Positions 18,985 through 52,931 of a DNA stretch of 64,000 nt are shown here, piece by piece. Source of the stretch: Copromyces sp. CBS 386.78 (lineage: Eukaryota > Ascomycota > Sordariomycetes > Sordariales > Sordariaceae). Made by a program: the position numbers and the translations under genes. The notes beneath the pieces were generated by a model that did no database searches, was not told where the DNA came from, and saw only the letters and a program-made list of their open reading frames with translations. Where the stretch lies: contig MU839182.1 of the NCBI GenBank assembly GCA_030685235.1, positions 62,001 through 126,000 of the forward strand. Reading direction: 5' to 3'. Within the stretch, counting starts at the first letter, position 1. Every line of letters starts with the position of its first letter.

Positions 18985-19058
18985 GAGCTTAACTTCCCGC
19001 ACCGTCCCTTTTGACTTGATGCACCCTTTTTGACTTGGTGCACCGCCCTGACAGGTGA
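18985..19058 (+). repeat. Left terminal inverted repeat of the giant MULE
   Basis: The outer 24 bp match the right end with one mismatch at position 20. Further in, CACCCTTTTTGACTTGGTGCACCG corresponds to a similar block in the right repeat. It contains two copies of a TTTGACTTGRTGCACC motif that is the reverse complement of the subterminal 19-bp repeats. Confidence 0.88.
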
Positions 19059-19113
19059 CAAAGTTTTCAACCGTTTTTATATGTAAATTACAGTATTTTT
19101 ACTGTTTCGAAAA

Positions 19114-19320
19114 TGGCGGTGCGCCAAGTTAATTGTAGTGCGCTAAGTCAATAGCGGTGCGCTAAGTTAATTACGGTGCGCCAAGTCAATTACAGTATAC
19201 TAAATCAATTGCGGTGCGCTAAATCAACTACGGTATACTAAATTAAGTACAGTACGTTAAATCAATTACGGTATACCAAATCAATTGCGGTACGCCAAGT
19301 CAATTATAGTATATTAAAAT
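19114..19320 (+). repeat. Subterminal 19-bp tandem array, about 10 copies
   Basis: The unit is CGGTGCGCCAAGTCAATTA, with RIP-type changes (C to T, G to A) in many copies. It matches, in reverse orientation, the TTTGACTTGGTGCACCG motif inside the terminal repeat. Such subterminal clusters in plant and fungal DNA transposons often bind the transposase, which is my suggested role. The right terminal region has a related single copy (GCGGTGTATTAAGTC at 52,870). Confidence 0.85.
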
Positions 19321-20040
19321 AATAATATTTTTATATACGTATAGTATTTATTAAATTATATAAATTAATTAATGTAATATATTTTATACGAATAATATTT
19401 AAAAACTTATATTAAACAAATTATATTATAATAAAAATTATTTTACCTTCTTAGAATTTAATTTATTATTAACTTTCCTAACTATTTTTATATACTAATT
19501 ATTATAATTATATAATTGCCTTACTTATTTGGAATTTAAATTTATATTATTAATTTTCTTAATAATTTTTCTAAAAAATAATTATTTTACTTATTTTAAA
19601 AATATATTTATATTATTAACTCTCACAATACTTTTTATATACTAGCTACTTTAATTAATAAGATATTTTTTTCAAATTTTTTTATTTTTATTTTATTTTA
19701 TTTAATTCTATTTTATTTAATTTTTTAATTTTTATTTTTTTAAATTTTCTTTTTTTTTAATTTTTTTATTATTATTATTTTTATTGTTATTTTATTTTAA
19801 TTTTATTTTTATTTTTATTTTTATTTTTATTTTTATTTTTATTTTAATTTTTATTTTTATTTTTATTTTTATTTATCCCTTTAAATAATTTAATATACTA
19901 CCTACCTTAATTAAAAAGTAGTACTACCTACCTAGGAATTAAATTTATAAATTTATTTAATTTACTAATTATTTTAATTAAATTACCCGAGATTATTTCT
20001 TTAAATACTTTTATTTACTACCTATTTTAATTAAGAAGGA
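19321..20040. other. AT-rich left interior of the MULE, simple repeats
   Basis: Very AT-rich DNA without a supportable frame. Between about 19,680 and 19,875 it becomes a (TTTTTA)n-like simple repeat. No gene or second element recognised. Confidence 0.6.
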
Positions 20041-20810
20041 GTTTTACTTACCTTAGAATACTCCTTTAATTATTCTACTACTTATTTTAGCCGAAAAGTA
20101 CTACTTACCTTAACCGAGAAAGAGTCTTACCTACTTTAGAATACTCTTTTAATTATTTTACTACTTATTTTAATTAAAAAGTATAATTTACTTTAGCCGA
20201 GAAGTAGTTTTACCTACCCTAGAATACTCCTTTAACTATTCTACTACTTATTTTACTGAAAAGTACGACCTATTTTAGCCGAGAAGTAGTCTTACCTACC
20301 CTAGAATACTCCTTTAACTATTTTACTACTTATTTTAGTTAAAAAGTACGATTTACTTTGGCCGAAAAGTAGTTTTACTTACCTTAGAATACTCTTTTAA
20401 CTACTCTACTACTTATTTTACCGAAAAGTACGACTTACTTTGGCCGAAAAGTAGTTTTATTTACCCTAGAATACTCCTTTAACTATTCTACTATTTATTT
20501 TAGCTAAAAAGTATAACTTACCTTAGCCGAGAAGTAATTTTACTTATTTTAGAATATTCTTTTAACTATTCTATTACTTATTTTACTGAAAAGTATAATT
20601 TACTTTAGCCGAAAAGTAGTTTTACTTATTTTAGAATATTCTTTTAATTATTTTACTACTTATTTTAGCTAAAAAGTACGACTTACCTTAGCCAAAAAGT
20701 AGTTTTACTTACTTTAGAATATTCTTCTAATTATTTTATTATTTATTTTAGTTAAAAAATACTATTTACTTTAGGCGAGAAATAATTTTGCCTATTTAAG
20801 AATTAAATTT
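20041..20810 (+). repeat. Minisatellite, about 83-bp unit, 9 copies
   Basis: TAGAATACTC or its RIP variant recurs at about 20,052, 20,136, 20,221, 20,302, 20,385, 20,467, 20,550, 20,632 and 20,716, so the spacing is 81-85 bp. Each unit also carries CTACTTATTTTA followed by AAAAGTACGACTTAC and GCCGAGAAGTAG. The copies differ mainly by transitions, consistent with RIP after amplification. Confidence 0.85.
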
Positions 20811-21099
20811 ATTAATTTATTTTACGAACTAGCCCTTTTATACGCAAAAGAATAAATATATTTACTTACCCGGGATTTATTTTATAAAGGTACAATAGGA
20901 TTATTAAATTTAGTAGTTGTAAATCGATTTTTAAAATTTCTTATATTAATTAATTTCGTAGAAATCGAGGAATTGCGATTTAGTTCGTCGGTTCCAATTT
21001 TACGGAGACTAGCGGTCGTAAAGTATATAAGAGGGGATAGTAAGAGTAATTAATTAAAATAAATAAAATAAGGCAAATATAAGTATATATTAATTGTAT
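20811..21099. other. AT-rich spacer between minisatellites
   Basis: A short, less degraded stretch (about 20,930-21,040) retains several CpG dinucleotides. I cannot identify a frame or a family in it. Confidence 0.4.
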
Positions 21100-21870
21100 A
21101 CGTCGCTCAATTAATATAAATATTAGAAGGGTTTTATAGAGGGTAAGCTCTTTGTACAATAGGTATTAATTAATTAATAAATATATTAAAAGGGTTTTAT
21201 AAAGGGTAGGCTCCTTATACAATAGGTATTAATATATATCAAAAAGGTTTCCAAATAGTATACTCTTTATATAATAAATATTAATTAATTAATAAGTATA
21301 TTAAAAAGTTCTTCTAAAAGGTAGGCTCCTTATATAATAAGTATTAATTAATTAATAAATATATTAAAAGGGTTTTATAAAGGGGTAGGCTCCTTATACA
21401 ATAGGTATTAGTCAATCGACAAATATATTAAAAGGGTTTTATAGAGGGTAGGCTCTTTATATAATGGGTATTAATTAATTAATAAATATATTAAAAAGTT
21501 CTTTTAGAAGGTAGGCTCTTTATATAATAGGTATTAATTAACCGACAAATATATTAAAAGGGTTTTATAGAGGGGTGGGCTCTTTGTACAATAAGTATTA
21601 ATTAACCGATAAATATATTAAAAAGGTTTTATAGAAGGGTAAGCTCCCTATATAATAGGTATTAATTAACCGACAAATATATTAAAAGGGTTTTATAGAG
21701 GGGTAAGCTCCTTATATAATAGGTATTAATTAATTAATAAATATATTAAAAGGGTTTTATATAAGGGTAGGCTCCCTATACGATAGGTATTAATTAATTA
21801 ATAAATATATAAGAGTGGTTATATAAAGGGTAGGCGATTATATAATAAATATTAATTAAATTTAAAATTA
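21100..21870 (+). repeat. Minisatellite, about 63-bp unit, 12 copies
   Basis: The core GTAGGCTCCTTATACAATAGG recurs with starts near 21,143, 21,205, 21,258, 21,321, 21,385, 21,448, 21,511, 21,575, 21,640, 21,702, 21,767 and 21,830. The spacing is 62-65 bp except for one shortened copy. Between cores lie TATTAATTAATTAATAAATA and AAAAGGGTTTTATA. Copies differ mostly by transitions. Confidence 0.88.
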
Positions 21871-22974
21871 TTATAAAGGGTTTAAAAGAGGGCCTACGGG
21901 AAGGATGTATAAGTTCGCTTGTATACTTTTTTATAGAAGTAAATTTAAATAATAAATAACCTTTTTCTAATACGAAGGCTTTTATAAAATTCTTATACTT
22001 AAATATATAATTCTAATTAATTATTCTTCTATATTAATAGGCTATATTAATAAATTTAACCTTCTACAGAAGGGCTACCTTAGTTAATACTTTAGGCACC
22101 TTTCTATAGTAATTTATAAAGGAAATTAAATTCCAATTTTTAAAGCGTTATTCTTACGTAGCTCCTTACGGTCTGCCGGGGTATTAATATTAATAGCGCG
22201 AACTACTTTACTACTACTATTAATAAATATTATATAAAATAATTTTATAAGCGTTAAAGAGAACCTTATAAGCGTTATAGAATATAGGAATATTAAATAG
22301 TATAAAATTTAGGTTTAATTTAATTATTTAAACTATTTTGCCTTTTAAATAGTAGCCCTATAAATATTAGATCTTAGGGACGAAAAAATTAGGTTTAATA
22401 AGTTAAACTACTATTAATATCCAGATAGTATAATAAAAAACGTCCTTACAAACCGCGAAGCCTCTTTAATTTTCGAACTATATAAAGAATAACTTTATTA
22501 AAAATATTATTTAATAATAGAAAATTAGTTTAATAAGAGCGTTTTCGAAGAGGGTTCTAATTTTAATTGTAATTTAATTTAGAGGGAATTTAGCTTAGGA
22601 ACTAATCCGTTTTTAATTATATTTTAGGGATTTAAAAATATAATAGGAATATTTAAAGGTATTAATATTTAATAAATAGAAGTAATATTCTAATTTACTA
22701 GAAATTTACTATTGCGAAAATATTTATTAAAAATATTTTTATTAATTAAAAACGGATAAGATAGAAGAGTATAAGGTAGTTTAATTTCTTTAAGACGTAG
22801 TTCTTTACTACGTTAGCCCGATAGAATTCGCCCGATAGAAATTTAGTAACCTATAAAGGAAACTTTAGTCTTATTTTACTTAGTATTATAGCGCGTAATT
22901 ACCCTACGGTCTACCGGGGTATTAACGTTATAATATATATTTCTACTTAATATTAGAGAGTACTTTATATGTGT
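21871..22974. other. AT-rich MULE interior, unidentified
   Basis: RIP-degraded DNA with frames broken on both strands. Two similar blocks, around 22,160-22,190 and 22,900-22,940, read TACGGTCTGCCGGGGTATTAA and its variant, suggesting a dispersed direct repeat. I find no recognisable protein. Confidence 0.4.
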
Positions 22975-22975
22975 T

Positions 22976-23220
22976 GGTAGTCAGCCTATCTAATCTAGAA
23001 CGTAGTTAACAACTATATTGGCTTATCGAATATAGAGCGTAGCTAATAATTATACCGGCCTATCTAACCTAGAGTGTAGTTAATAATTATATTAATCTTA
23101 TTTAGAAATGAAAAGACTTAAAGGCCCGATGTTAGAAGACCCTTATTAGATTATTCGTCTTATTTAGAAATAAAAAGATTTAAAGGCCCGATATTGGAAG
23201 ACCTTTGTTAGATTAAATTA
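22976..23220 (+). repeat. Two short tandem arrays, 37-bp and about 62-bp units
   Basis: Units starting GTAGTTAACAACTATATTGG recur about three and a half times with a 37-bp period (22,976-23,100). Two copies of a unit containing CTTATTTAGAAATGAAAAGA and AAAGGCCCGATGTTAGAAGA follow. Both arrays show transition-type differences between copies. Confidence 0.75.
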
Positions 23221-23558
23221 TATAGTTTTACTAAGGAATCTAATATTAGTTCGGGCCCGGCTGAGAAAGTAGTATTTAGTTTAACTTAGGACCGTCTTTT
23301 TTAGTCTTAGCTTTATTAACGAATATATTCGGACTAAGAAAGTTAGGGATCCTATTAAATTAGCCTTTAAAAAGTAATATTAATTTAATTACTTTATTAC
23401 TTTAGAGTTAATAGTGCTTAGGTTATTTTGGTTAATATACTTTCTAGGATGAACTTTTAACCTTTAAATTTAATAATTTTATTATTCTAAGTATTACGCT
23501 ACTAGGGTTTTTTTTCGTAAGAATTTTACTTAGTTGAAAGTAGTTTTTTAAATATAAA

Positions 23559-23779
23559 TATCACGGGGATAATACCGTTGGGGGTATAGTTGGATATACG
23601 TAGTTGTACGAGGAAGGAAAGAAGGAGGAGGGAGGAGTGCGGTCTGGATATAGGGCAGGCTGTGCCGTGCCCTAGCTCCGGGACCGAGGTCCACTAGTAC
23701 GTATATACGGTCCTATTGGCCAATAGCTAATAGATTCGACTATATAATACCCAGTACTATTATAAGTAATCTTATAATA
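23559..23779 (-). repeat. Retrotransposon 1 LTR (3' LTR)
   Basis: 221 bp, matching the copy at 30,634-30,854 apart from many transitions. A polypurine tract, GGGAGGTAG on the minus strand, abuts it at 23,780. Confidence 0.9.
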
Positions 23780-26700
23780 CTACCTCCCTATAAAAGAAGC
23801 TTATAGAGCTTTAAACGATCTATCTAATATATACATATAAAATAATAGAATTTTACTTCAATTTCAATCCCCGTCTTCCAACTCCTTAATCCGTAATTTA
23901 ACGCCTATAATCCGTAATCAAATATCGTTATTACCCTACTAATAAGTTCTAATTTCCAATTATACTTTTATATTCCTTATTAAGGGCCGCTTTCCTTACT
24001 AAACCTCCGTTAACCTCCTAAATACTTTATAAAAGAATTCGTTTATTTTCTTTGAATCCTCTTCGGATAGGGGCTCGAATTCCCGGCTTACTAATTCGAC
24101 CGTAACTTCTCCCTCGTAACCTACTACAATATCCGCTATAGCGGTATTAATCTACTCCTTTAAATCGGTAATATATTTAGAATATTTCGGGGGCGGGGCT
24201 AAGGACGCTATATAATATATTTAAAGTACGGGCGATACTATATAGCGTATTTAAAGTACGAACGACGCCGTATAATATATTTAAGGTACTAAAGCCTTCT
24301 ACTTTAAGGTCCGCTCTTAAAGTATAGCTTTAATTTTTAGCTAATTCTAAACCGCTAGCGGGATAAGGGTATTTAAATAATTATAATAAAATATAATAAC
24401 AAAATACCTTACTCCTTTAACGTTATCGACGGGTTTATTAATAAAATTATAATACTTCTACTTTACCGTATAGAACTAATAACGGTTGCCTCTTCGTTAA
24501 AAATAGTTTAAAAGCTTATTAAACTCCTATTCTACTACTTCCTTATAATTATCTATTTTAACTATAATTCTACCTTCGTTAATTCGTACGTCGTTTTATA
24601 AATTAATTTAACTAAAGAAGCCTTCTTAATAAAGTTTTACTATAAAAATATAGAATATTAACGAATATTTTATATTAATAAGTAAAATTAATTTAACGTT
24701 ATAAAATTATATTTAATCTACTTTAAAGGGGCCTTCTTATCGTAAAGATAATTTATTATATAGTTTACTATTATTAAAATTAGTCGTATTAAATAAAACG
24801 AAATCCCTAATATAATATTTTAATATATTAGACCGATTTTCGTTAACGTTAACCTCGTATTAATCCTATACTTTCTTTATAAAAGTACGTATATAGTCCT
24901 AAATAGCCTCGAAACGAACGAATAGTTCGCTAGCCTTTATATATTCCTTCTACTATATTAGCGAGAAACTTTCTAACGGTACGACTACTACGGGTTCGAT
25001 ACCTATACGGGGGTAAAAACCGTAATTAATAAAGAAGGGGGTTACGCCCGTAATTAATAATATTATATTATTTCCTACGAACTCCGCTAATAGTAACTAT
25101 CGTACTTAATCCGTTTATATTTAATTAACGAAAATATATAAATATTATTCTATTTTTACGTTAATACATTCCGTTTAAACGTTAATCTATAAGTAGAAAG
25201 CGGAATTCAATAATTTCTTAATAGCTAAACGTTTATAAATTGTAAATTAGAATAAGGATATAAACTAAATACTACAATCGGAAACGATAGTATTAGATAA
25301 ATTATAAAGGGTATAAATATAATTAATAAAACAGTCCGCTAATTCTTCCGCTTTTATAATAATAATCGGGATATAATAGCGTATCTTTATTAAATAGTCT
25401 ACAACAACAATAATATATTTAAATTTCTAGCCTAAATAAAGGCTTTCTAGCAAAGGGGAAACGTAATCGACTAATATATTAATTTATAGTACGTAAACCG
25501 CTAATATAGGTTTAAAATAGCTTACCTTAGCCCATCGTAATACCTTCGTCTTAAAATATACTAAATAACCTTTATAATAAGCCTTAATAACCTCCGCTAT
25601 ACTTAACTAATACTAATACTCGTTTATCTATACTTATATTTTATCCTTACCTAGATAGCCGGCTATTAATAACGAGTAAACGTAATAAATTAATAGTAAA
25701 TAAATAGCGGTATTATTAAAATTAATAAGCACCCTTCCTCTATAATAAGCTTTACCTCCTATTGTAAAATATTCAGCGAAAGCGACTTTAAGGTTCTTCT
25801 TAATATAGGAGCGCTATTTAATATAATTTAAGTCCTTTAAACAATTAATAGCCTCCTATATTAAAATCGACTAATCGTAATTCTCATTAATAATATTATT
25901 AATTAACTTATCCAACTCCTTTAAAGTATTTAAGGATAGTAAAAATACTTCTTCATTAAAATCGAAATCGTTACTAATTATTATAGCCGATAAAGAGAAA
26001 TACTCCTCCTTAAAGCGGGCAGGGTCGATAAGCTTATAATTTCTTACTTTTAAACGGTAATCGTTTATATCTAAAAATATATCCTCTAGCTTCTTATTTA
26101 GTATATCGGGGCGGAAATTCTATAACTCTGGCATATAAAGGATTAAAAAATTGAATTATAATAGGAACTATAACTATTATATATAGCGGAATATAAACTA
26201 CTTATTTATCGTAAAGGTCTTTAAATTCTTATAATCTATAATAATATTAAAAGGTTATTAAATACCCTCCAATTCTAAGCGCCACTCCTCTAATACTTTA
26301 ACAATAGCGAAGAATTCCTTATTAAAAATATTATAATTATACTCCACTACTAAATACTATACTAAAAAGTACGCAATTAAGTAGAACTCGCTATTATTTC
26401 CGTACTAAGAAAGGGTACTTCTAAAAACTTAATTCGAAGTATCGGTCTCAACGACCGTCTTCTTAAACTAGTCGTAGATCCGTAAAGTTAGTCCGCTAGT
26501 AAATACAACTTTTAAAGTCTTAAAAGCAGACTATTATATTATAATCTATAACTATTCCGCGTCCTTTTTCGTAAAATCGTATAATAATACCGCTATTATC
26601 GAAAAACCTTTAATAAAACGACGATAAAAGTTAATAAACCCTAGGAAATTCTATAAAAGTTTTTTTAACATTAAAAATTACTAATTTATAATAACTTTAA

Positions 26701-29700
26701 CCTTCGCTAGATCTATTTCAATACTACTTAGTATAATAATTAATCCAAAATATTTAATTTTCTTAATATAAAATTCGTATTTATTAATATCGACCTATAG
26801 GCCAGCCTTCTCTAAGCGGGTAAGAATATCGTCTATATATTTCTAATAATCTTCCTTATTATCCGAAAAAATAAAAATATTATTTAAGTAAATAATTATA
26901 TAAATATCTAAAATATTGTATAAAATATCGTTAATATAGTTTTAGAATGCACTAAGTATTCTTCATAGGCCGAATAAATAAATAAATAATTTAAATAGGC
27001 TAAAACGGGTAATAAACGTTATTAATTATTCGTATCCTTCTATAACGTAAATATAATTAAAAGCGGCGATAATATTTAACTTAATAAAAATCTTTACTTT
27101 ACAAATAGCATTAAAGGTTTCCTTAATTAAGGAGAACAGGTAATAGCTTTTAAAAATAATATTATTAATCCCTTTATAATTTATATAAATTTTAATACCT
27201 CCGCCTAACTTCTATACTAATAGGATTTAGGAAGCGGCCTCTAATTACAAAGGACGGATAAACCTATTATAAAAATTCTCGTCGATCTACTTCTTAATTA
27301 TATTTAATTCGTCGGAATTAAATACCCTTAATCTTATATAGGGCGCCTATTCTCCTAAGCGGAATTCGATTTTAAAATTATAAAAGCGGTAGGGGAGTAA
27401 AACTATTATATTATAAGGTTTAAAAACGTCGAAATAATTCTAATATTATTTAGGAAGCTTCTCCTTAATCTAAACATTAGTTTTAAACAATTTATCGGCC
27501 TTCTCGTAAAACTTAGCCACATTTTCTTCTATAATACTAACGGCAAATTTAATAACTTCGCAACGTTCGAAATCTTCGTCTACATTACTACTAAAATAAA
27601 TATATTTAACGATTTTTATTATTCGAATAGCAACCTTAAATCCCTTACCAGCGTAAGCGTTAATCTACAAATAGTAATACTTACTTAGTAATTTCTTATA
27701 CTTAGCGCCGTTACTATCCTAGATTTCTTATTCCATTTCTAAAGTAAGGTTCGCCAAACTATTAAATATATTATAATTATATTCAATTCCTATCCCTACC
27801 CCTCTATTAACAACGCTTTTATCGTTTTTATACTCCTCAAACTCTAGGGCGCCCCCCTCTACCTCTTTAGCCCGGGCTTCCTCCTTCGCCCTAACCTCTT
27901 CCAAAATCTCACAAAATTCTACGTACAAAATATAAAACACTCGTAAATAATATTTTTCGTATAACCAATTAAAATTAACGGCCGTTATATCCTGAATATC
28001 TATAAAATTAATTAATTCGTTCGAAAAATACATCTTACGTACTATAATATAATAATAGGGGTCGGATTTTCGCCAGCCGGCTATAATATAGTAAATAGTA
28101 AACTTAGTCCACTTAGGAGTTTCAATAATAATATTTACAATTAGGGCGGGATTTAAGGTAATATCCGCAACCGGGGCGGGATCGGGAGTAATATCGTCTT
28201 CAACAATATCGGGAACAGAGTCCGCAATTAGGGTATTAGAATCAATTATTTCGGTTATATTTTATATAATTTTGTAATAACGTATATAAATATACTTCCA
28301 AACCTTAGGCGCATATTATAAAAAGGGTAACAAATCCGCAAGAAGGTAGCAGTTTATACAATAATTAATAAAAGTAACGGTACTATTTAATTATAATATT
28401 ATAAGGTTATAAAATTTAAATTACAATATATTTAAAATAACGGAATAATTGTTAATTAAGTCGTAGGCTAATATAACGATCGTTTCTATATAGTAACCAA
28501 TCCGCAATTAGACTTTATAATAATAAATAATAGAGTCCTTAAATATACCGTTTACTAAATATAAAACCTTTAATTTAAAGAGCTTTAATAGTAAGATAAT
28601 ATAGCGGGCAGTAAAACTACAATTAATAAAAGCGAAACTAAAATATCCGCTATTAATTAAAATAATATATTTACTATATTAATTACGCAATTTATAAATA
28701 ATTTAAATAGAAAAGAAAATAAAATTATTATTATAGTTATTTAAATTTAAATTCTTAAATTAAATTACTTTTAAATCTATTAAATTATTTACTTCCTCCT
28801 CTATTATTATAAATAATAGCCTCTCTAAGCGATTTAGTAGAGAAGCGGTACATTTCCCGTACTATATTCCGCAAATTAGGCGGGAATTAGAACGGAGGGT
28901 ATAATAAAAGCGGCGGGCTTACTAGTAGCGACGGCGTTAACGCAAACGCCGTTATTACCGTTATTACTATAGCCGGTCTAGCCTATAGCGAATTTACTAC
29001 AGTTATTATTACCTCCTCTAGCGTAACGGTTATAATATTTACACTCCCTTTATTCCTTAGGAATACTAGTATTAATATTATTATAATATTCGTAAATATA
29101 GTAATTAATTTAAGCGTAGCGCTTACGAAGTCCGTTCTTTATATAATAATTAATAACCGCTTTATTAATTATACGGGATAATTAAACGTTAACAGCGTTT
29201 ATAGCGTCGAAATCTATAATAGTATTATTTTAATTAATAATACGTTCGGGGGCAACGGTATTATTAATACTAATACCAGTTTTAAAGTAAATATTAATCT
29301 TATTATACTAATTATACTCCTCTAAATTAGTAGCGAATTTATAATAAAAGGTAAATTATCCGTCGAAATTATTATAAATCGGGGTATCTTACTAATAAAC
29401 AATAGTATTACGGATCTTATTTATAACCTTTATTTTTAAATAATATATTTTTATAGCGTTATTAAAATTATATTTATTAATAATAATAATAAATTTATCT
29501 TCGAAATCGAATTATTTATTACCCTTAAATATTTTAAAGGATTTAAAGTCCTAACGTACTTCGAAGGTGAAATCTATACAATTATATTTCGTATTAAAGT
29601 ATTTGAAGAAAGCTTCCGCACTTATTTATTTCTACTTTATTAAATCTACCTCTTTAATAATAGGTATTACATAGGAGGCTAAAATCTTAAAAATATTACC

Positions 29701-30633
29701 GCTGAAATATAAAAAAATTTAAACGAATTTATAACGCTTATTTTAATCGAATTACCAAACGTCCTAAAACTAATAGAACTAAATTTTATCTTTCTAATCC
29801 TAGAAAACTTCGGCTCTCTTAATAATAAAAGTATCCTCGCCAGTATAAATAGTAGGGTCCTCACTAGTACAAGACTTAAAGGTAATTATTTCTTCGTCGT
29901 TAAAATCGGGGGCGGGGACAAAAGCAGGTATAGCGACTTTATTGCGAACGGCTTTCTTAAAGGCCCTAATCTAGGTTTCGGCAGTCTTCTTAAATTTAAT
30001 ATTAATTTCGTTAATTATAATAAAATTATTATAGAATTATTAAGCCTCCTATTAAAGGTTAACGAATTCCTACTAAAAGTTAGTAATAATATTTTCTTAA
30101 TTAGCAATCTATTAATAAGCAATTTCGAAAGAATCTTGGACGGCGCTAGCGAACGTATTAATTTAAACTAAATCCGTATAGATTAATTAGGCGAAAATAA
30201 TGATAATATAAGGAAAAATAATATATTGGGCGAATTTAAAAGCGGTATTAAGGACTTCCTCTACAATTAAATTACTTAAATATTAAAGAACAATACCGTT
30301 AAGGGTTTCCGTAACGTTTTCGAACAATTATTTATACTCAGAGCCGACAATAGCGTTAATCGTAGAAATAGCAACGTCGAAATTAGTAATAGGGGCCGCC
30401 ATTTAAATAATTAATCAATACTTACTACCTTATAGCATAAATACTTACTACCTTGTAGCGTAAACAATATCCGTTAACTACCTTATAGTAACGAAAAAAA
30501 GGTCTATTGCGATACAACGAGAAAGGTGTATCGCGGTACGACGAAATCGCAGGCTCGTCGAAAATACTTACGATAGCGGCGATAAACTTATCTTAAAGTA
30601 TACACGCGCAGCGTAATAGTAAGTACAACTAAC

Positions 30634-30854
30634 TATCACGGGGATAACACCGTTAGGGGTATAGTTAGATATACGTAGTTGTACGAGGAAAGAAAGAATG
30701 AGAAGGGAGGAGTGCGGTCTAAATATAGGGCAAGCTATACCGTACCCTAAATCCGGAACCGAGGTCCACTGGTGCGTACATGCGGTCCTATTGGCCAATA
30801 GCCAATGGACTCGACTATGCAGTACCCAGTGCCATCATAGGTAATCCTGTGATA
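30634..30854 (-). repeat. Retrotransposon 1 LTR (5' LTR)
   Basis: 221 bp and the less mutated of the pair. The ORF shown at 30,568-30,798 lies across it and is not a gene. Confidence 0.9.
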
Positions 30855-30859
30855 ATAAA

Positions 30860-31059
30860 GTATATTCTAGTCCCCTTGTTTTAATATTGAGGAATTTCGA
30901 ACCCGAGGGAGTAGGGGGCTAATTCTTTTACGCTATTAAACTAGTAGTTTACGAATTACTATTTAAAGGCGTAAAGGTAATTAGCGCCCTATTAAAAATT
31001 TAATATTTAAAATTAAGTAAATTTATTTTATTTTATTTTATATTGTTTTATTTTTTATT
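30860..31059. other. MULE interior, right of retrotransposon 1
   Basis: Unidentified RIP-degraded sequence, continuous with the MULE sequence left of the retrotransposon. Confidence 0.4.
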
Positions 31060-31450: not shown

Positions 31451-31503
31451 TATAATTTTAAATATGCTATTTAACTAATTAAGACCGGAGGATTAATATA
31501 TAA

Positions 31504-40300: not shown

Positions 40301-43300
40301 GTAGATCTATCTTTAAAAAAACTAAAAGCGGATTTAATAACGATTTTAATTTTAATAAAAACGAATATTTCTTAATGTAAGTAATTAATATAACGGAAGT
40401 TCCTAAAGGTAGTTAGGTTATAATAATAGAGCCCTTAATTTCTCTAATATATATAAAAAGGTTTAAAGAACTTTTTAACCCTATAGGGAAATTAACGCTA
40501 GAGAAAATCAAAACAAAAATATAGATTATTAGTAGATAAAAGATCTAGATAATACAACGGTTAGAACGAGTAAAATGTACGTTTTTTTAATAATTCGAAT
40601 TAATAATTAATATAATAGCCTTAAATCTTTTAAATATTAAATTAATTAATATAAAAACCTTTATATTTAATATACGAATAAAGGGCGTTAAAGTTAATTC
40701 TATTATATAGGTAGAATTCTAAGAAGTGTAGAAAGAAAAGAAAATAATTATTTTAATGTTATTTCTATCCGAAAATGTATGGAAGGATATTATATAAGGA
40801 AGGGGAGAATTATATAAACCTTATTTTAAGAATTTTAAAGTATATGAATTTATTGACTTTTATAAAGTAGAAATTACGAGTAAGAGTAAGGGAAAGTAGG
40901 CCTTCCAGCTTGGCGAGTCCGCGAAGGAATACGTTAATTGTATATATACGTTGAAAATAATAGACGGTAAGCCCTAGAAACCGGCCGAAAGGTAGGAGTA
41001 GAAGTTAACCCCTTTGACTGAAATTAATAAAATCTACGGTATTATAAAGGAAGATGTTTAAAAATTTATAGATAAAGCTATTCGGCTAAAATATACCCTA
41101 AAAGAAGTAAAAGTATAGTTCTTAAACGAATATAAGGATTTTTTTTACGTTATTAACCTACGGGATACCGACGTAATACCCGAATACCGTTCTTATAATT
41201 ATAAGATCGAATTGAAATTAAAGGTAGAATTTCTACCCTATTTTAGAGTACGACCGATATTATTATAAGAGTTTAAGGTTATTAAATAATAGTTAGATAA
41301 TAATTTGGCGAAGGGATTTATTAAGCTATTTACCTCTAACGTCGCCTCGCTAGTTTTACTAGCCCGCAAATTAGGTAGTAGCGTACGGATTTATGTAGAT
41401 TATAGAAGTATTAATAAGATTTTATTAAAAAATAAATATCCGTTACCTTTAATTAAAGAAACCTTAGATGCTATTTACCGAGTTAAGTAGTTTACGAAAG
41501 TAAATATTATCGCTGCTTTTAATAGATTACGTATAATTAAAGGATATAAATAGTTAACCGTTTTTATTATAAAGTTTAGCCTTTACGAATTATTAGTTTA
41601 TCCGTTCGGTTTATTAAGGGCTTTAACCTTATTTTAGAACTTTATTAATAATATTTTATATAATATTCTAAATATTTATATAACAGTATACTTTAACGAC
41701 GTCCTAATTTTCTTAAAAATATACAAAGAATACGTTAAGTATATTAAGGAAGTTTTATAACGCCTAATTAACGTAAGTTTGTAAATTGATATTAATAAGT
41801 GCGAATTTTATATTTAACGGACTAAGTATCTAAGTTTTATTATTACCCCTAAGGGTATTAAAATAGATTTAGAAAAGGTAGAGGCTATTACTAAATAGGA
41901 AGTATTTATAATAAAAAAATAATTATAATGTTTTTTAAGTTTTACTGACTTCTATAGGAGGTTTATTGCTAATTTTTTACGTATAGGCAAGCTATTATAC
42001 GAGTTAATAAAGAAAATAATAGATTAGAAGTAGAATAAAGAGTATAATAACGCCTTTAAGGCTTTGAAAACGGCTTTTATAACTGTATTAATTTTAAAGA
42101 TTTATAATTAGGAGAAACCGACCGTTATTAAAGTTGACGCCTCTAATTGGTTAATAGGCGGTATACTATTATAGTTGTACGACGGTGAACTATACCTAAT
42201 CGCCTACTTTTCGGCTAAGTATTCTATAGTAGAATATAATTATAATATTTATAATAAGGAATTGCTAGCCGTTATTAAAGTGTTAGAAGAATAAAAACCC
42301 GAATTAGAAGGCGCCGTTTAACCTTTTAAAATTATTATAAATTATAAGAACCTTAAGACTTTTAATATTATAAAAAAGCTTATACTTAAGTATATAAGGT
42401 AGTCCGAATTTTTATCCAAATTTAATTTTATAATTAAATATCGGCCGGAATTAATTAACGTTAGGTTTAATATTCTTAACTATAAACTAAAGTATATATT
42501 AAGGGATATAGAGGACGATAGGTTAAAGGTAAAGTAGAAGCTGTTTATCGATCTATTATACTTTAATAAAAATTTATTCGAATTAATAGATATAAATAGT
42601 AAAAGTTTTATAATAAACGTTATATTAAATATAAGAGCGCTACTTATAGTCTATACCTTAGAAGATAGTTTTTAAAATAACGAGCATAGATTAGGTATTT
42701 ATACGGATAATTTAGTAGACCGGGCTTACGCCAATTCCCCTATAATAGCGGACATTAGGAAAATTATTAAATTAAGCGATTATTAGCCAAAATACTTGAA
42801 GAAAATACTAAAAATCCCTTTCGCCGAATATTATATAATTAACGATAGGGTAATATTTAGAGATAGGTTAGTAATACCCCCCGATAATAAAGCGGTCTAA
42901 TTAGAGTTAATCTATCGTATTTATACTTCGGTATAAGGTGGCTATCTTAAGAAGGATAAAACGGTAGTACTAATATACCGCTACTTTTAGTTAAGGATAG
43001 TAGTTGTAGTAAATATTTACTATAAAAGGTATATACTTTATAGTAAAATTAAAGCTATTAGGATATCACTAGTAAATTTCTTTAAACCTTTACTTATTCC
43101 TAATACCCTATAGCGCAATATTTCTATCGACTACGTAACTCTATTCCTTAAATTATAGTAGGTAAGTAGAAGGGCGGAGTACAAATACGTATTAATTATA
43201 GTAGATAGGCTAATTAAAATAAAGTATTTTATCCTAATAAAAGGGTTAATAACGGAAGAATTAGTAGAAAAGTTTATTAACCGCATTTATATTCTTTATA

Positions 43301-45058
43301 GTCTTCTAAATACCGTAATTTCGAATAGAGGTATCTAATTCGTTTCGGCCTTTTAAAAATAGTTATCCTTATAGCTAGGCATTAAATTAAAATATTCTAC
43401 ACTTTATTATAAAGAAATTAATAGATAAATAGAAAAGATTAATATAGAATTAGAATAATACTTATAAATTTTTATTAATTGGGCACAAGACGATTAGGTA
43501 AATTGGCTACCTTTGGCTAAATTCTAAGGCAATAACCTTAAATTGGTATTAATAGGAATAACCCCGTTCTTCGCTAATTATAGTTTTTACCCTCGTATAG
43601 GGATAGAACTATCTATACCGTTCCCCCTAAATATAATAAAAGTATAGAAGAAATAGATCTTTAATACTAATTAATTAGTATTATAGTTTAAAGAAATTTA
43701 GAACTTCGTTAAAACTTCTTCTTTGTAAGTATAAATAAAGTATAAGGTAGCGGCGAACGAAAACCGTACTAACGTATTTAAATATAAGGTTAAGGATAAA
43801 GTTATACTTAATATAGTTAATTATATAATTAGTAGGCTGTACGATAAATTGGCGCTACGTTTTGAAGGACTTTTTCGTATTATAAAAGTTAGCTTACATA
43901 CGGTAAAGTTAGCCTTGCTTAGCAATATAAAGGTTATTTATATTATTAATATATTTAAGGTTAAACTGTACGTTAAAAGTTTACCGGGCTAGAAAAATTT
44001 AATAATTAACGTTAAAGTTAACGAAGGTATAGTGGTTACTAGAACCGACGACTTCGAAGAGGATAAGCGTTAGGAGTTCGAAGAATTCTTAAATTATTAA
44101 AAGATTGAAGAACGTTAATATTATTTAGTAAAATAATTTTACCACCCCCTAAACTAGTAACCAACGGCCAATTTCGATAACTACTAGGAGGTAATCTAGG
44201 ACTTTTATAAAAGGCGGCTAGAATTAGGGCTACTATATATCAATTTTAGGAAGGGATTTAAAGCTTAGCTAAAGGTAAAGACTTTATTTAATAACGAAGG
44301 AACTAGAATTAAAGTATTACCTTTTCTAATCCCCGTTAAAGTACTACTTTTTCTAATCTCCGTTACAGCCGCCCTAGAAGTAAATAATTAGTAAGTTTAG
44401 CAAAATATAAGGTTAAATAATAAATAAAGTAAACGGATATAAAAAATAAGGAATTTAATAACGGCTTATTCTATATATCCTAACCGAATTACCTTATAAA
44501 TACCCTACTATAATAGTAAGGGCACCGTTAATAATAACCGGGAGATAATACGTCTTATAACGTACCTACGTCTCCTACCCCTAATACTTTACCCCCCTAG
44601 CCAACAGTTAAAGCCTATACAGTCAAAATTTTATATTGCAGTTAGTAGGGAAGGGGGAAATAATTATAAAATAGAGAAAAATAATTATAGTAATTATAAC
44701 GAAATTCGAATAGAAGGCTTCTATAATTTATAATACTAATAAGGATATAAGCGTCCCTATATATTACTATACTACGGGCGTCCTTATAGTACTCCCTATT
44801 GGGGGTTAGTAATAGTAAGGTATAGATAGGAAGCTTATAAGACGATTAGGAATATTTTAAACTTATTTAGGATTGTTTAGGGTAATAATCGAGTGATCTT
44901 TACGAAAGGGGTATATTTAGTAATATTTTAATTAATATTCAACCCTTTAATAGGAGGCTTGGCGCTAAGCGTTTACCCGCCTTGGTAGGCCCTACTTTAT
45001 AGATATTAATAGTTTTTAAACGGTTTTGAAGCCGGGAATTAATTTAGGAGGGGAGTAA

Positions 45059-45303
45059 TATTATAAGTATTGCCTGCTCCTTATAAATAGATAGATAGGG
45101 GTGCTATACTACATTAGTATAGTTAACTGAATGTAGCTATTTGAATATAGTACAGCTAGTACGTATAGTGCCGCCCTGTAGACCTATAGCCACAGGGCTC
45201 TATACTATACCCTATATAGTTCTCGTATACGCACAGGTTCCTCTTCTAGTTCCTCGTACAACAATTAACATCTTACCTTAGTGCTTGCTCGCGCTCCATA
45301 ATA
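45059..45303 (+). repeat. Retrotransposon 2 LTR (3' LTR)
   Basis: 245 bp. Its first bases, TATTATAAGT, are what RIP would make from TGTCACAGGC. It ends CCATAATA, directly before the ATAGG duplication. Confidence 0.92.
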
Positions 45304-45308
45304 ATAGG

Positions 45309-48300
45309 GTTATATTTGGGAAGGCGGTAAGTAATTTAAATAGGCGAATAGATTTTATAATATATAATAATATTTAAATTTATTTAGGATATTATAATAT
45401 CCTCGTTTAACCTTCTACTATATAAAATATTTATTTAATTACTAGTATAATATTTAATTACGCCCGCTATTTTAATAGTTTATTCGCAGGATATTGGATT
45501 GTAGAAGCGAACGAATATATAAAGTCGGTAAGTAGATTACGGCGGTGCAGTCTAGTAAAATTGGGTACGCTAAAGTATTTATTTACAGAATATTTATTTG
45601 CTGAACGGGGAAGTTAAATAATAATTAATTTCTATAATTAAGCGAATAAATAGTATAATTACTATAGTAATCTAGTTTATACGAGTTTGTACTTTTATGC
45701 GGTAATATATAAAGATTTTAAAAGAGTAATTTCCGGGTATTTAATAATATAGGGTTTAAAGAAGTAGTAAGTTAATAGTTTTTTAATAGCGTATTCGTAT
45801 TTAATATATTTTTTATTTTAATTATAATATTTTAAGTTATAGGCTTACTATAGTTAATAAATTCAGATATATAAATATAGTCCGCCCCTATTTTTAAAGA
45901 AAATAAATTGAAATTCCCGAAACCGTAGAGAAAAAAGCTAATATAACGTTAAATATCGATTAATAATACTAATAAAGCTATACCTTTCCTATTAAATATA
46001 GTAGTAAAATATTAAAAATTAGAATAATAGTCCTAATAAAAGTATTTCGCCGCCGAATTTAAAATAGTAAAATAATCCTTTAATTACACTTATAATTAGG
46101 TAGAAAATGTATAGAATAATACCCGTTCACCTTTAAATATTTAATTAAATAAATTATGTAATTTTATATTGAATATTCTAATATATATATTAAAAGCGGT
46201 AAAAATATTTTTAATAGTATTAAAGGACTTCGGATCGGCTCTTACGCCTTTTATCCACCTTAATTTTATAATATAATTATAATAATGGAAATAAGGATAA
46301 TAGTAGCCTATAGGCTAAGAAATTAATTTTCAACCCTATCCTAAGAATAGAGAGTATATTAAATTTTAATTAATATAATCCGGTTAATTCGTTTTATATA
46401 TATAACTTATATAGCTAAACTAATCTATTCTAGAAGTTTAGGGGGTATTCGGGTATTTTTATAAGCGGTTAATTTATATTCTTATAATTTAATAGAAAGA
46501 AGCCCTTCGAAATACCTATATTATACCCCTACCTTTCGGTTATTCGCCGTTTAAAATAGAAATAGAAGAAAATAAAGAACTAATAATTCAAACGGGACCT
46601 TTAGGAGCCGGTAAAGTTAGAAAGCTTTCGTCCTATAAATTAGGGATTTAATATTGTATCCGTATTAATTCTCGGGCTATATTTATATTTATACTGATAT
46701 ACCCGGCTTTCTTTTAATAATTACGTTTTAATAGGCCTAGCCAATTCTTACAAATTATTTATAATAATTTTATAGTAGCGTTAATATATAGTTTAATTCT
46801 CTTAAATTATTTGCCGATAAAGTCATTTAATTATAAGGAAATAAGGGTAACGCTATTAAGTACTTAAAACGTTCTAAGCCTTAATTTCTCTATTATAATA
46901 GAATTAATCGAGACTTTAAAATATTCTATACTTTATAGATCGTTAAAAATCGATTTTATAGGACTGGCGCTGATAATAAGGTTTTAATTATAGTATTATA
47001 TTTTACTATTTATTAATTTAATAAAATAATATAACCCTTTTTATTTATTATATTTAATAGACTTATCCGAACGTCTTTTATTTAGCCGATATAACCAATT
47101 ATTTTAAATATAATCCCTAACGTCTTTTTAAAGTATTTAATAATATTCTTTTATCTTATTTATCTATTATTATTACGTAAAAATAATATCGATGCGAATT
47201 ATTTAAAAAACGGTTTTATATATTAAGAGCGCTTTATAATCTTTAATAACAGTTAAGGCGGGAATAATAATATTCGTTAAAATTATTTTTAAATTTAAAT
47301 TTATATTATAGCCGCCTAAATTAATTAATAAAATATACGTATTAGGATTATAGTTTAGGGCGCGAATAGTAACGTTGCGAAATTTTTTAAGAGAAAATAA
47401 TAATTTCCCTTCCTTCTTTAAACTATCCTTAACGAACTTTAATATAGCATTAATTTTAAAATTCTTAGTTTCGGATTTAAATTCCTTTTTATCCTAGGAG
47501 CCAGTACGCTCTTTCGTAGGGTAGTTACCTAGGGGCAATAACGTACTTTAGAATAAATTTAATAAGGAAGTATTATAGGAATAATACGTAATACGGAATA
47601 TTATTACTAAATATTATATACTTTATATTTAATAACCCCGAACTTTATTAAGGGTAAAACGCATTTTTATTATCCGAATTAGAATTTATTATTATTATAG
47701 CTACGCCGTCTAAATTCTCTTCGCAATAAGATAGGGAAATTTTAATAATTTATATATTTTCTACTTTAAGGACTTTAAATATTTAATTAATATAATATCT
47801 ATTATATATTTTTAATATAAAAGAGTACTTTATTTACATTAGTACTATTAAATAAATATTCGGGGGGTGCGGTACGCGGGAATATTATTTACCCCTTTTA
47901 TAAATTACGCTCTTATATATTATACGCCCCGAATAAAATAATTAATTTAAGACGGCTAATATTATATTTACGAAGATTAAAATTAGTAGGGGATTAAAAA
48001 ATATTATAAGTAGAGAAAAATTAAATAGGTTATTCCTATTAATATAATTATTATTCTAGCGGTAATTTAATTGGTAAAATAAATTAATTAGCCCTCTTTT
48101 AAAAATACCCTAAAAATTACGGGAACCGGGGTAAAAGTAGGAGCCGAAGCGAATACCGAAATTAGTAATTATTAAATAGTAAGTTGAAGTATAATAATAC
48201 GTTACTAATTTAAATTTAATACGTATTTTTTTTTTTACTTTCTTTTTTTTACTTTTACTCTATATCTCTTAGAAATAATATCCTATCATTTATAAATAGT

Positions 48301-49300
48301 ATTCTATCCTTAAGAAATTATATTTTATTTTTTAGAAAGTTATTAAATAGAGAAGGATTATTTTAAAAGGGATCCTTTCGAATATTTTTCTTATTATTAA
48401 CCGAATTTTACGCTTTCCTTTATACTTTAACTTTCTAAAAACTTAAAAGTACAGAATAATTCTCTCTTTATAATTCGGCTAAATTAGGCTTTATATCTTC
48501 CGCATTATTATTAATATTAATACTTTTATAAATAGAATTACTAGTAGGACGGCTTATAATATTAATAATAAAAGTATTTCTAATACGAGGTAGAATAATA
48601 ATTAATTAATTAGTAAAGGACAATAAAATATAATAAGTCTTTAAAATATATATAGCGCCGATTCCGAATATTTAATTCCTATTAATCACTTACATTTAGG
48701 TCGTTATTAAAGTCTCCTTTTAAAATATTATAATATTAATAACAATTTAGAATTAATAATATTAAAAATTATTAAAGCCTTTACTAAGAGAAGTTTTACC
48801 TCGTAATTCGATAATTATTTAGGAAAATATTTTTAAATATAAGAATAATAATAGTAATACTTCGTAATTGTAATCCCCGTCCTAACTTCGTTTAATTTAT
48901 TTAATTTACCGCCGTTCGATTTCTTTAGGCTTTATTTAAAGTATTTTTAAAAATAATAATATAGACTTTTTTACTTAATCTATTTCTTTCCGTTTTTAAT
49001 TATTTTAAAGAATTAAATTAATTAACGAATTAATCGATAAGTATTTATCCTTTATCCCTAATAGATAGCGTACAATAATAATTAATATAGTGAAATAGTT
49101 TAACCCTAAGGATTAGGACTAATTAAATATTAGAATTCTAAAGAAGTTAGAAGTATATTGCCTAGTATTTATTAATTTAAAAGAAATTTTGCTAAATATT
49201 AAAATAGCGGTAGCGACTTTATAATTATAAATTACTAAGTTTAATATTATAGCTGCTAAATTTAAAGGATTTAATTATTAAAGAATTATATTAAAATTCT
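45309..49300. other. MULE interior between retrotransposon 2 and the transposase
   Basis: AT-rich, RIP-degraded DNA with no frame I can identify. A block near 46,640 (TAAATTAGGGATTTAATATT) resembles part of the 36.5-kb duplication. No LTR or further transposon end is seen. Some of this may be the 3' untranslated part of the transposase gene or further cargo. Confidence 0.4.
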
Positions 49301-49399
49301 TATTTATTCTCTTATTCGCTTTCGTTACTTTCTATAATTATAAAATTCTTTTAATTACCCGGCTAAATCCTATATAGATCTAAATCTTCGGGGCAATTT

Positions 49400-52300
49400 T
49401 CTTCTAAATATAATTATTTCTCCTCTTTATTTATAGCCCGCTTCTTTTACCGTTTAATAGTAGCCCGCTTCTTCTATTCTATAATTATAAAGTTTAAATT
49501 AATAATATATTCCTTTTTAATATTATTATTAGTAAATAAAGGGAGCGAATTTAGTAGTAAATTTAGTAGAGAGTTTAGTTCTACTACTTTTAGGGCTAGG
49601 CGTTTGCGAGTATTAATACGTACTAGGCGGCCGGAATTGGAGGCGGTAGTAGGAGTTAGAGCCTTCGCCTTACCTCCTTTACCTCCTTTACCTTTGTTTA
49701 ATCCCTTAAATCTCCCCCTCTTACGTAATATTAGCGCTTATTAAGATTGCTAAGTATTATTACTAATAATAATATAATCCTATAGATTAGCCTCTTCTTA
49801 TTTATTTTATTTATCCTCCTTATCCTCCGCCTCTTCCGCTTTTTCCGCCTCTTCCTCCTCCTCCGCCTCTTCCTCTTTATCTTCTTTATCTTCCGTATTA
49901 ATATTATTTAACGCTTCGAAGCCGGGTTTAGAAATTTCAAATTGAAAGTAGTTGCGTCTCCTACCGCTAAGGATATAGTTACCTCTTCCGATTCGAATTA
50001 TATTACGGGGACTTTGTACTAATTCTAATATAATTGGTTTATTATTAAACGGACTATATTTATTTTTAGGGCGCCCCTTAGCTACTATATTATTTATAGA
50101 TATAATACAAAAATATTTATTATACGTATTTAGAGATTTAATTAGACCTTAGAAGGGATAGTAGTTAATTTTATTAATTAGAGCCTTCTTAGGGTCTTCT
50201 TTATTATATTGCTTAAGTAGATTATAAGTATATAGTAAATTATCTTAGACTATAAACGTTCTAAAGTAAAGTTCGAAATTTTGAAGGTAAAGGTTTCAGT
50301 TAAATTATATAATATATAAAGTTTTATAATATTATTCTTATAATATATTTAAACTTTAGCTAGTTATTTATAATTTGTAATCCCCTAGTTAATTATTATT
50401 CTATAGGTAAATATAATGAATTCGGGCCTTAGAAGCGGTGATGCCTTTTTTATAGGAATTATACCGCTTATTGAAAACGGCCTTCGTTACGTAATATACT
50501 TTATTAAAGCCCGTACGCGCTAATAAGCCCTCTACTTTAATACTAGCGTTAATAAATTCGTTAAAGGACGTTATCCTATTATTAAAATTAGGGAAATATT
50601 TAATATAGTAGTTAGCTTATTCCCTTTTAATAAGTATAAATTCGTCGTTAATATATTTGAATAATTGCGGTTGGGTCTATTTGAAGGTAGTATTTATAAA
50701 GCGTTTTATTTAGTTAAATTTTTATAAATTGCTATTATATATTATATATTATTAGTAGGTAAAAAAGGTAATCTTTGTCTACGCTAATTGGGCGGGTAGG
50801 GAGCTTATATAAATTTTTATCTTTATAATTGTACGTACTTTCTAATATTTTCGTCGAAACGTTTGGAAATCCGTAGTATTTAAATTATTAAATATATTAT
50901 TATTATTTTAATGGGGCTAGGTAGATTAAAGTAGTTAAAAAGAGGATAGAATTGATTAATTTAATTATTAGAATTATATTGATTATAACCCGCTACGTTT
51001 TTATTGGGAGCCGCGCTTACCTTTCTAGCTACCCTTATTTATAATTCTTTTAACCTTCTTTATCTTCTTTTTACCCTTCTAATACGTTTTAATAATAATA
51101 ATAACGTTATTATTAAAATACTATATATACCGTTAGCGCTAATAATTAAGAAAGACTATTTCTAACGTAATAATAAGCTAAGGATCGTTATTAATAATAA
51201 ATATATTAGGTATAGGGATAGATGAGAGTAATAGGAATTTAAATAGCTATTCGAAATATTGTTTAAATCCCCCCTCCGCCTGCTCGTTATTAATTAGGTA
51301 TTGAAAAATTAGAATTATAATATAAATAAACGTAGTAATAACCCTTATAATTAATGGTTTATTAAACCGATTAGTTTTATAAATAATATTAATTATTAAA
51401 ACGTATAGAAATTGCTTTTAGAATTTATATTACTTCGCTAATATTTAAAATGCTATATAGAATATTTCCCTATTCTACCCTTTGAAATCGACCTTAGCGT
51501 GGAGAACCGTCCTTTATTTCGGGTATAAGAGGGTATCCTTTTTTAAAATGTAAGAGAAGTTTTAAATATCGGTATAACTAGTCTTTTAATTTTTATAGGT
51601 ATAGTAATATATATTAGAATAGTCTTTGGAAATAAGGAGTAGGCTTAGATATTTATATTTTATAAATTATTTGATTATACGGATTGATAATTTTTTTTAT
51701 ATGAAAAGGTTATAAATATATTTATTTTATTCGTCTATAAGAATTAAACGAAATTAGGGGAAGGTAGTTATAGAGGTAGCGGGAATATAGTTATAATATT
51801 CGAAATTTATAGAGTAAGCCTTATAGAGTAGTTCTTTATTCCTTAAAGCTATACAGTTAATATATTTAATTAATATACGAAATAAATAATCTAGTATAAT
51901 CTTTTTAAATTTATAACGAAAATGGGCTTATTCTTTAAATATAAAGTAAGCGCAATATTTAATATATTTATACTATATTTAATAATTTTTAAACTTTTTA
52001 TTTTTAAAGCGGGACCGTTATATATTTAAGCCTATATAATGCCGGGCCTTAAATTCGTAAATAATTATAAATATATTGTCTTCTAATTAAGGAATTATAG
52101 TAAAGAGTTTATCGTTTGGGTCTACAAACTAGTAGATTGATTTATTAAGGTTGGCGGCGGCGGCGCTGGCGGCGGCGGTAGCGGTAGCAATAGTAGTTTT
52201 AATAGAATCCTCGTCGTTGGATTCTATTAATAAAAGATTCGAAGCGCTATTTTTATTATTATCGCTAGAAAGAGGGTTAGGGGTACGGTCGCTATTATTA

Positions 52301-52548
52301 TTGCTATCGTTATCGCTATTACTATCGTTATCGTTATCGCTATCGCTAAATAGAGGATTGGGAGTACGGTTACGGTCGTTGTCGCTATTACTATTACTAG
52401 ATAGAGGATTGGGGGTATAGTTGCGGTCGCGGTCGCTATTATTGTCGTTATCGTTATTGCTAAATAGGGAATTAGGGGTACAGTCGCAGTCGCTAGCGAT
52501 AATTATATAATAGGAGTGTGGAGAAGAGGTTGGAAATAATTGCGACAA
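49400..52548 (-). pseudogene. MULE transposase, RIP-mutated
   Basis: Read on the minus strand, a single frame runs from ATG at 52,548 to about 49,400 without a frameshift, about 1,000 codons, broken only by TAA/TAG. The N-terminus has several TPNPLSS-type repeats separated by Asp/Asn/Ser runs. The MULE catalytic region follows near 51,410-51,120: IIYKTNRFNKPLI (first Asp position, now Asn), a QYLINNEQAEGGFKQYFE block, then SSIPIPNIFIINNDP (second acidic position). Next come FKYINDEFILIK and NFNNRITSFNEFINASIKVE. An acidic tail (EDKEEEAEEEEEAEKAEE) and basic patches end it. It would have cut and joined the element's terminal repeats. The catalytic losses are G-to-A changes typical of RIP. Confidence 0.88.
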
Positions 52549-52689
52549 TACTATAGAAATATAAGTAATTTAATATAATAAAGACGCGTAAGTAAGGGAA
52601 CCCTATTATTGAGTATTCGGTTGAGCGTAATCGGGTTGGGGGGGTAGTCGGGTTGGGGGGGAGTTGTATAATTAGGTTAGGATTTAGGA

Positions 52690-52748
52690 TTATATTGTGT
52701 TATATTATATTATATTATATTGTGTTGTGTTGTGTTGTGTTGTGTTGA
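52690..52748. repeat. Simple repeat at the right end of the MULE
   Basis: TATTA and TTGTG pentamers (TATATTATATT, then GTTGTGTTGTGTTG) form a pentanucleotide-like microsatellite between the transposase ATG and the right terminal repeat. Confidence 0.7.
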
Positions 52749-52851
52749 AATCGCCAAGTTTTTTCTTGCCAGTGGTCGAATAGTTGAAACGTTTTGGAAA
52801 TTAATTTTACCATACAAAACGGGGTACTTTACATATTAGCTGCCATTTAGC

Positions 52852-52931
52852 TGTCGGGTGGAGTAAATGCGGTGTATTAAGTCAAAAAAGGGTGCGCGAG
52901 GATATTAGGGATGGTGCGGGAAGTTAAGCTC
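52852..52931 (-). repeat. Right terminal inverted repeat of the giant MULE
   Basis: Reading inward on the minus strand it begins GAGCTTAACTTCCCGCACC, as the left end does. Further in it has CGCACCCTTTTTTGACTTAA and TACACCGC, matching the motif pair of the left repeat in the same order. Confidence 0.88.

Follow-up and report, generated by a model that had tools for sequence, protein, structure and literature searches.

The AT-rich block at positions 18985-52931 of the window, the whole 64,000-nucleotide stretch of Copromyces sp. CBS 386.78 DNA analysed here, is probably not a giant transposon. It is better read as an ordinary Mutator-like element (MULE), about 4.1-4.6 kb in size, that was enlarged later, because most of the length of the block consists of repeats that are found elsewhere without its ends. 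The initial annotation had described a single giant MULE of 34 kb, or of 18.5 kb without nested retrotransposons. Its assignment to the Mutator-like elements stood up to analysis: the ends are intact and cognate, and an 8-bp duplication marks the insertion in a host gene. The single giant element was not supported.

Terminal repeats and the family of end pairs

MULEs are recognized by terminal inverted repeats, target duplications of about 8-11 bp, a PF10551 transposase, and intact DDE residues. Duplications of 8 bp are also made by hAT elements, and Starships carry a captain tyrosine recombinase (DUF3435). Six-frame scans of 21900-23554, 31720-37137, and 45304-52931, which RIP weakens, found neither a hAT dimerisation domain nor a Starship captain. 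The inverted repeat that had been noticed at both edges of the block was recovered at exactly the same coordinates, with 23 of 24 bp matching between the ends at 18985 and 52931. The 19-mer GAGCTTAACTTCCCGCACC occurs in the window once at 18985 and once inverted at 52913-52931, and nowhere else there. The flanking duplication was likewise found to be perfect. The features at the two ends are as follows.

18977-18984, no strand: left target-site duplication TTTATCTA, 8/8 identical to 52932-52939
18985-19008, + strand: left terminal inverted repeat, 23/24 identical to the right end
18985-19162, + strand: left-type end common to the short copies, the best left-type match in 29 of 30 of them
52720-52931, - strand: right-type end common to the short copies, from short-copy matches, including the terminal inverted repeat at 52908-52931
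52932-52939, no strand: right target-site duplication TTTATCTA, 8/8 identical to the left one

We searched the whole genome for the 19-mer, allowing up to 3 mismatches, and obtained 81 matches, compared with 3 for a reversed control; ends with more than 3 mismatches would escape this search. These matches arrange as 32 facing pairs (64 of the 81). The 8-bp flanks were identical in 23 pairs, as in the window, and matched at 7/8 in four, 6/8 in one, 4/8 in one, and 2/8 in three, so that 27 of the 32 pairs have flanks at least 7/8 identical. Among 192 control flank pairs the maximum was 6/8, reached once. Spacing is 420-1230 bp in 30 pairs, 14.7 kb in a pair on contig C61, and 33.9 kb in the window. 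The 26 short copies of 420-515 bp have a median pairwise identity of 0.80, with transitions twice as frequent as transversions.

Beyond the inverted repeat, the short copies show two distinct end types. Twenty-nine of the 30 have one end of the window-left type, matching from 18985 to between 19110 and 19162, and one of the window-right type, with matches that start at 52533-52806 and end at 52895-52931. The sole exception, L017, matched neither type at the threshold used. The window itself has one left-type and one right-type end, correctly facing. By this comparison the two window ends belong together as a true pair.

L017 (C29:247600-249200) is 887 bp long, with family ends of only about 30 bp around GC-rich (54% overall) non-family DNA, and is possibly a gene-capture derivative. 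We did not retain it as a Pack-MULE, given that its matches to other contigs are few and only about 50 bp long.

The 17 matches outside the pairs comprise 11 three-mismatch matches and six unpaired ends (C29, C158, C27, C181, C1, and C53). The surroundings are GC-rich at C29 and C158, and also at C27, which has an AT-rich stretch about 14 kb away. At C181 (L065, C181:1-7016), a right-type end closes a 7-kb AT-rich block that is cut by the contig start, and this block is a possible third large case.

The interrupted host gene

The target of the MULE was a host gene, in which it left its 8-bp duplication.

18553-18984, + strand: 5' part of the host gene, including one copy of TTTATCTA, from the joined open frame and the homolog P0002
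52940-53302, + strand: 3' part of the host gene, on the same evidence

When the flanks are joined (18553-18984 with 52940 onward), one phase stays open for 264 aa; stops appear at 151 and 161 aa in the remaining two. The joined protein is 51% identical over 265 positions to P0002, found in a large protein collection, and this homolog runs uninterrupted across the insertion site, through the junction motif TFYL. The joined protein also matches the neighboring frame at 53366 with 31% identity over 174 positions spanning the junction. By eye, the host gene looks F-box-like. The insertion site lies amid a local family of related frames (104-736, 3581-4690, 18553-18984, and 53366-53902), and BLASTP of the joined protein against the other three frames gave E values of 2e-10 to 2e-6.

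With about 30 short copies in the family, two unrelated ones could conceivably flank an AT-rich block by chance. We consider this extremely unlikely, since the duplication is exact, a left-type end faces a right-type end, and the host frame is restored on joining.

Transposase relic and the MULE arms

The initial annotation had also placed a MULE transposase relic inside the block. Profile searches support this weakly: PF10551 matches at 51142-51393 with 20.4 bits (E 0.024), below the cut-off of 27.6, and hmmscan of one frame of the relic gave E 0.067, again below the curated cut-off. The 359-aa read-through of the relic, with stops written as X, contains 23 stops in 359 codons and matches five other genomic places, with identities of 32-33%. 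The best of these, on C71, has an E value of 3.7e-13 and is itself a relic that scores 55.8 bits against PF10551. Because of this match we accept the window relic as a real MULE transposase relic, though a weak one in its score against Pfam. No homologs of the relic were found at E 0.001 in the protein collection (7995 candidates scored).

19112-19323, + strand: subterminal array of about 10 units of 19 bp in the MULE left arm, from a tandem repeat call, with the end at 19323 set by eye
19324-19855, no strand: AT-rich stretch including most of a TTTTTA tract (19679-19874), possibly, but not certainly, a part of the composite repeat described below
49213-52931, - strand: MULE right arm, with no other long copy in the genome and not found on C10 112000-119000
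50521-52569, - strand: MULE transposase relic, reading inward from the right end, from PF10551 at 51142-51393 and the C71 match; its parts are a Ser/Asp-rich N-terminal region (52132-52569), a core (51061-52137), and a likely C-terminal region to 50521 assigned by eye
52278-52560, - strand: repeats that encode the Ser/Asp-rich beginning of the transposase, matched in 13 of 30 short copies, repetitive and weak

The N-terminal region is an open stretch of 146 codons, and repeats like its Ser/Asp-rich start occur, as DNA matches, mid-element in 13 of the 30 short copies. As these Ser/Asp-type repeats lie in their middle, the short copies may descend from a transposase-bearing element, although such repeats match easily. 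Genome searches with 49200-52800 found no close or long copy; the matches elsewhere are fragments of about 60-120 bp, several of which sit at short copies of the family. The case also links a family of some 30 short elements, with their 8-bp duplications, to a relic of a MULE transposase that the genome itself contains.

We estimate the MULE proper at about 4.1-4.6 kb, running from 18985 to between 19323 and 19855 and again over 49213-52931. This native size is only inferred, because no un-nested full-length (about 4-kb) copy was found in this genome. A genome profile search listed 139 PF10551 matches, 132 of them with internal stops. The other seven listed have none, although a contig start truncates one of these, so intact members of other MULE families may still exist.

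Nested retrotransposons

Two nested retrotransposons had been proposed, leaving a remainder of about 18.5 kb. Both were recovered, and the block measures 18,465 bp once the two elements are removed, each with one 5-bp duplication.

23559-30854, - strand: LTR-B, nested Ty3/gypsy element, with ATAAA at 23554-23558 and 30855-30859
37128-45303, + strand: LTR-A, nested Ty3/gypsy element, with ATAGG at 37123-37127 and 45304-45308

The paired LTRs are 85.5% identical in LTR-A and 85% identical in LTR-B, and both elements have reverse transcriptase and RNase H domains above Pfam cut-offs (RVT_1 in LTR-A, E 6.8e-15). Empty sites were found on C10 and C1 for LTR-A and on C10 for LTR-B. Those on C10 show the target duplications, ATAGG for LTR-A and ATAAA for LTR-B, with exact ends set by eye. 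As judged from these empty sites, both gypsy insertions are nested.

The composite repeat

Most of the 18.5-kb remainder probably does not belong to the MULE. It is a composite repeat, X carrying Y, that extends over 19856-49212 and measures about 13.9 kb once LTR-A and LTR-B are left out.

19856-34016, no strand: composite X, left part, interrupted by LTR-B, collinear with C10 (except about 830 bp) and partly present on C3, C14 (in two copies), C262, and C108
34017-46075, no strand: nested repeat Y, measuring about 3.9 kb when LTR-A is left out; present on C10 and a minimum of 13 further contigs, its edges sharp in the comparison with C1
34605-36988, no strand: 2.4-kb segment of Y unlike C10 and C1
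46076-49212, no strand: composite X, right part, matching C10 with few transversions to about 49212 and at chance level beyond

The composite is collinear with about 118.8-131.9 kb of C10, on the minus strand, and about 10.7 kb is common to both. We read the C10 locus from 112000 to 136999; it lies itself in AT-rich repeats. Two parts are not collinear: about 830 bp at 32052-32882, and 34605-36988 (2.4 kb), where the window stands apart from C10 and C1, which agree with each other. This 2.4-kb segment replaces about an equal length of Y, and its flanks match C10 almost only by transitions. Around the Y edges, the window and C10 differ by one transversion in about 1,200 sites, all other differences being transitions. 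Counts of transitions and transversions were 198 and 15 over 21900-23553, 128 and 25 over 30870-32040, 545 and 592 over 32900-37120 (which includes the non-corresponding 2.4 kb), and 633 and 16 over 45310-49210 (3,851 sites). X also contains two minisatellites, one of about 9 copies of an 83-bp unit (20016-20803) and one of about 12 copies of a 64-bp unit (21109-21884). Past the right edge, C10 has further pieces like 47074-47255 and 48302-48786 of the window.

The match to C10 ends sharply near 49212, and its left limit lies within the T-rich tract near 19856. The stretch 19324-19855 may or may not be composite, because its pieces score somewhat above shuffles on C10 but transversions are near chance level. 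Pieces of 19320-19880 beat their shuffles (130.5 against 116.5, 214 against 194, 132 against 100, and 188.5 against 145.5), so the start of the composite may lie as far left as about 19350. Neither the first 340 bp of the left arm nor the right arm rose above shuffles on C10, apart from the exceptions among the following scores. The left end, 18985-19120, scored 59.5, equal to the best of 20 shuffles (59.5), and 53.5 against 48 on the reverse strand (5 shuffles); the 19-bp array, 19105-19325, scored 69 against 85 for shuffles. Among ten 400-bp pieces of the right arm from 49200, eight fell below their shuffles (8 shuffles each), one tied, and one, 49600-49999, exceeded them (128.5 against 96.5), which we take as probable compositional similarity. 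A transition-blind word comparison of C10 with both MULE arms gave no match.

The left part of X was found on C10, C3, C14 (two copies), C262, and C108. C3 and C14 share an X left terminus, with 88% identity from the same point and different flanks. This terminus aligns between C10 and C3 (score 154, without shuffle comparison) and is absent from the window, where the score against C3 is 62 and shuffles reach 52-75. Truncation of the window unit is therefore not enough to explain C10, because the left terminus of C3, C14, and C10 is absent in the window; a truncated giant MULE on C10 was rejected on this terminus together with the missing arms. Pieces of X or Y lie on at least 17 further contigs, with either no MULE end (up to 3 mismatches) there or none within 100 kb. 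C3, C10, C14, C82, C108, and C262 had zero matches in the end search at the same threshold. These repeat-match counts are lower bounds because only the best candidates were scored in the genome searches. Matches of the 30 short copies to the window are confined to 18985-19199 and 52200-52931, plus one in 19300-19499, and none lies inside X.

These data bear on whether the block is one giant MULE of about 18.5 kb, with X and Y as its own interior and two later gypsy hits. The whole block does lie inside a perfect 8-bp duplication, and the mostly collinear X/Y of the window and C10, with few transversions, suggests copying of the composite as one unit. Several results speak against the giant element: C10 shows no MULE end or transposase and yet has the X left terminus missing from the window, the at least 17 further contigs have pieces of X/Y with no MULE ends (up to 3 mismatches) near, and the short derivatives contain nothing of X. 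The earlier proposal that 18.5 kb form one MULE far above ordinary size is not supported, given the about 13.9 kb of repeat, mostly collinear on C10, where no MULE end or transposase was found, and we consider a giant element unlikely. The copies elsewhere support the view that X and Y are foreign to the MULE.

No Pfam domains were found in the scanned X and Y frames, including no reverse transcriptase in X. We searched the window edges of X for a target duplication or terminal structure, and the best flank match was equalled by 936 of 2000 shuffles. A LINE-like nature of X (T-rich tail, long target duplications) was rejected, as 936 of 2000 shuffles for the window and 563 of 2000 for C10 reach the observed value and the X frames scanned gave no reverse transcriptase domain.

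The second large pair

As a check, the initial annotation had suggested looking for paired ends at a distance of 15-35 kb. The 14.7-kb pair on C61 seemed to fit, with matching ends and a perfect 8-bp duplication; only its ends are common with the window. It consists of a short copy, whose two sides (264 bp and 197 bp) can be aligned with other short copies, and an unrelated interior of 14,258 bp with inverted ends of its own, CCCTGCTGGG... and CCCTAGGGGG.... This interior begins exactly where a copy on C82 begins, the left end being common to both and the flanks different. We therefore dropped C61 as a second giant MULE, because both arms align with short copies and the interior has its own ends.

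The foreign element, Z, is RIPed and 14.26 kb long (C61:48000-62718, L009 and L010; C82:131661 onward, L081). It may be of the CACTA type, with a putative 2-bp duplication, CG. Pfam scans of C61 in five or six frames found only PF22807 (E 0.067, 11.9 bits against a cut-off of 30.9), which we take as a chance match.

Discussion

The interior X/Y recurs without MULE ends, and the sole other large pair holds a different insert. Under the reading that we prefer, a MULE of about 4.1-4.6 kb, with a transposase gene read inward from its right arm, entered the host gene and duplicated 8 bp. The composite X carrying Y would have entered the MULE later, followed by the two gypsy elements whose insertions the empty sites show, one into Y and the other into X; the entry of the composite and this order are our reconstruction. 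The AT content, dinucleotide indices, and excess of transitions point to RIP, which would have mutated the long interior and left the short ends readable. The short copies would be internal-deletion derivatives moved in trans by the family transposase. X may have entered by insertion, with a duplication hidden by RIP, or by copying in gap repair.

Gap repair would also allow the MULE to have captured about 14 kb of repeat DNA as cargo, in Pack-MULE style, giving a complete element of about 18.5 kb. X lacks its own left terminus and a detectable target duplication in the window, like copied filler, and L017 offers a parallel in its ends of about 30 bp around non-family DNA with few matches of about 50 bp elsewhere. 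We found no second copy of MULE ends with X, and so no sign of movement as cargo; insertion followed by RIP could equally hide a duplication. We regard cargo capture as very unlikely. If true, a Pack-MULE-like element with heterochromatic repeat cargo, about four times as large as the MULE proper, would have existed, and it might have spread repeat DNA into gene-rich regions.

In plants, Pack-MULEs and MITEs are short non-autonomous derivatives that keep the ends of autonomous MULEs. The short copies here resemble them as non-autonomous derivatives with MULE ends, and gene capture is only putative here.

The inferred size of the MULE proper would fall within that of fungal MULEs. VdMULE1-3 of Verticillium dahliae are 3.4-3.6 kb long, with a PF10551 transposase and terminal inverted repeats of 73-86 bp in the table and 86, 82, and 53 bp in the text, and an 8-bp duplication is given for VdMULE1 (PMC3441728). 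The window MULE is like them in PF10551, terminal inverted repeats, size range, and, for VdMULE1, the 8-bp duplication; unlike them (73-86-bp repeats), it has 24-bp repeats plus a subterminal array, an inferred size of 4.1-4.6 kb, and only a transposase relic (PMC3441728). Two other fungal Mutator-like elements have 9-bp duplications rather than the 8 bp seen here: Hop of Fusarium oxysporum, with perfect 99-bp inverted repeats, and the 7.4-kb Mutyl of Yarrowia lipolytica, which has a second gene and, like the window MULE, short inverted repeats (imperfect, 22 bp) (PMC5014426). Sly1-1 of Neurospora crassa is an 11.5-kb DNA transposon and thus also a large one in a RIP fungus, but it belongs to the CMC superfamily, not Mutator, and is not RIPed (PMC4592977). 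Element Z might be closer to Sly1-1. Titles and abstract openings in the open-licence literature gave no Neurospora MULE family with these features, which is not proof that the family is undescribed.

This case shows that nesting and RIP together can make an ordinary transposon look gigantic, and that intact outer ends and their target duplication remain recognizable even when the DNA between them is mutated.
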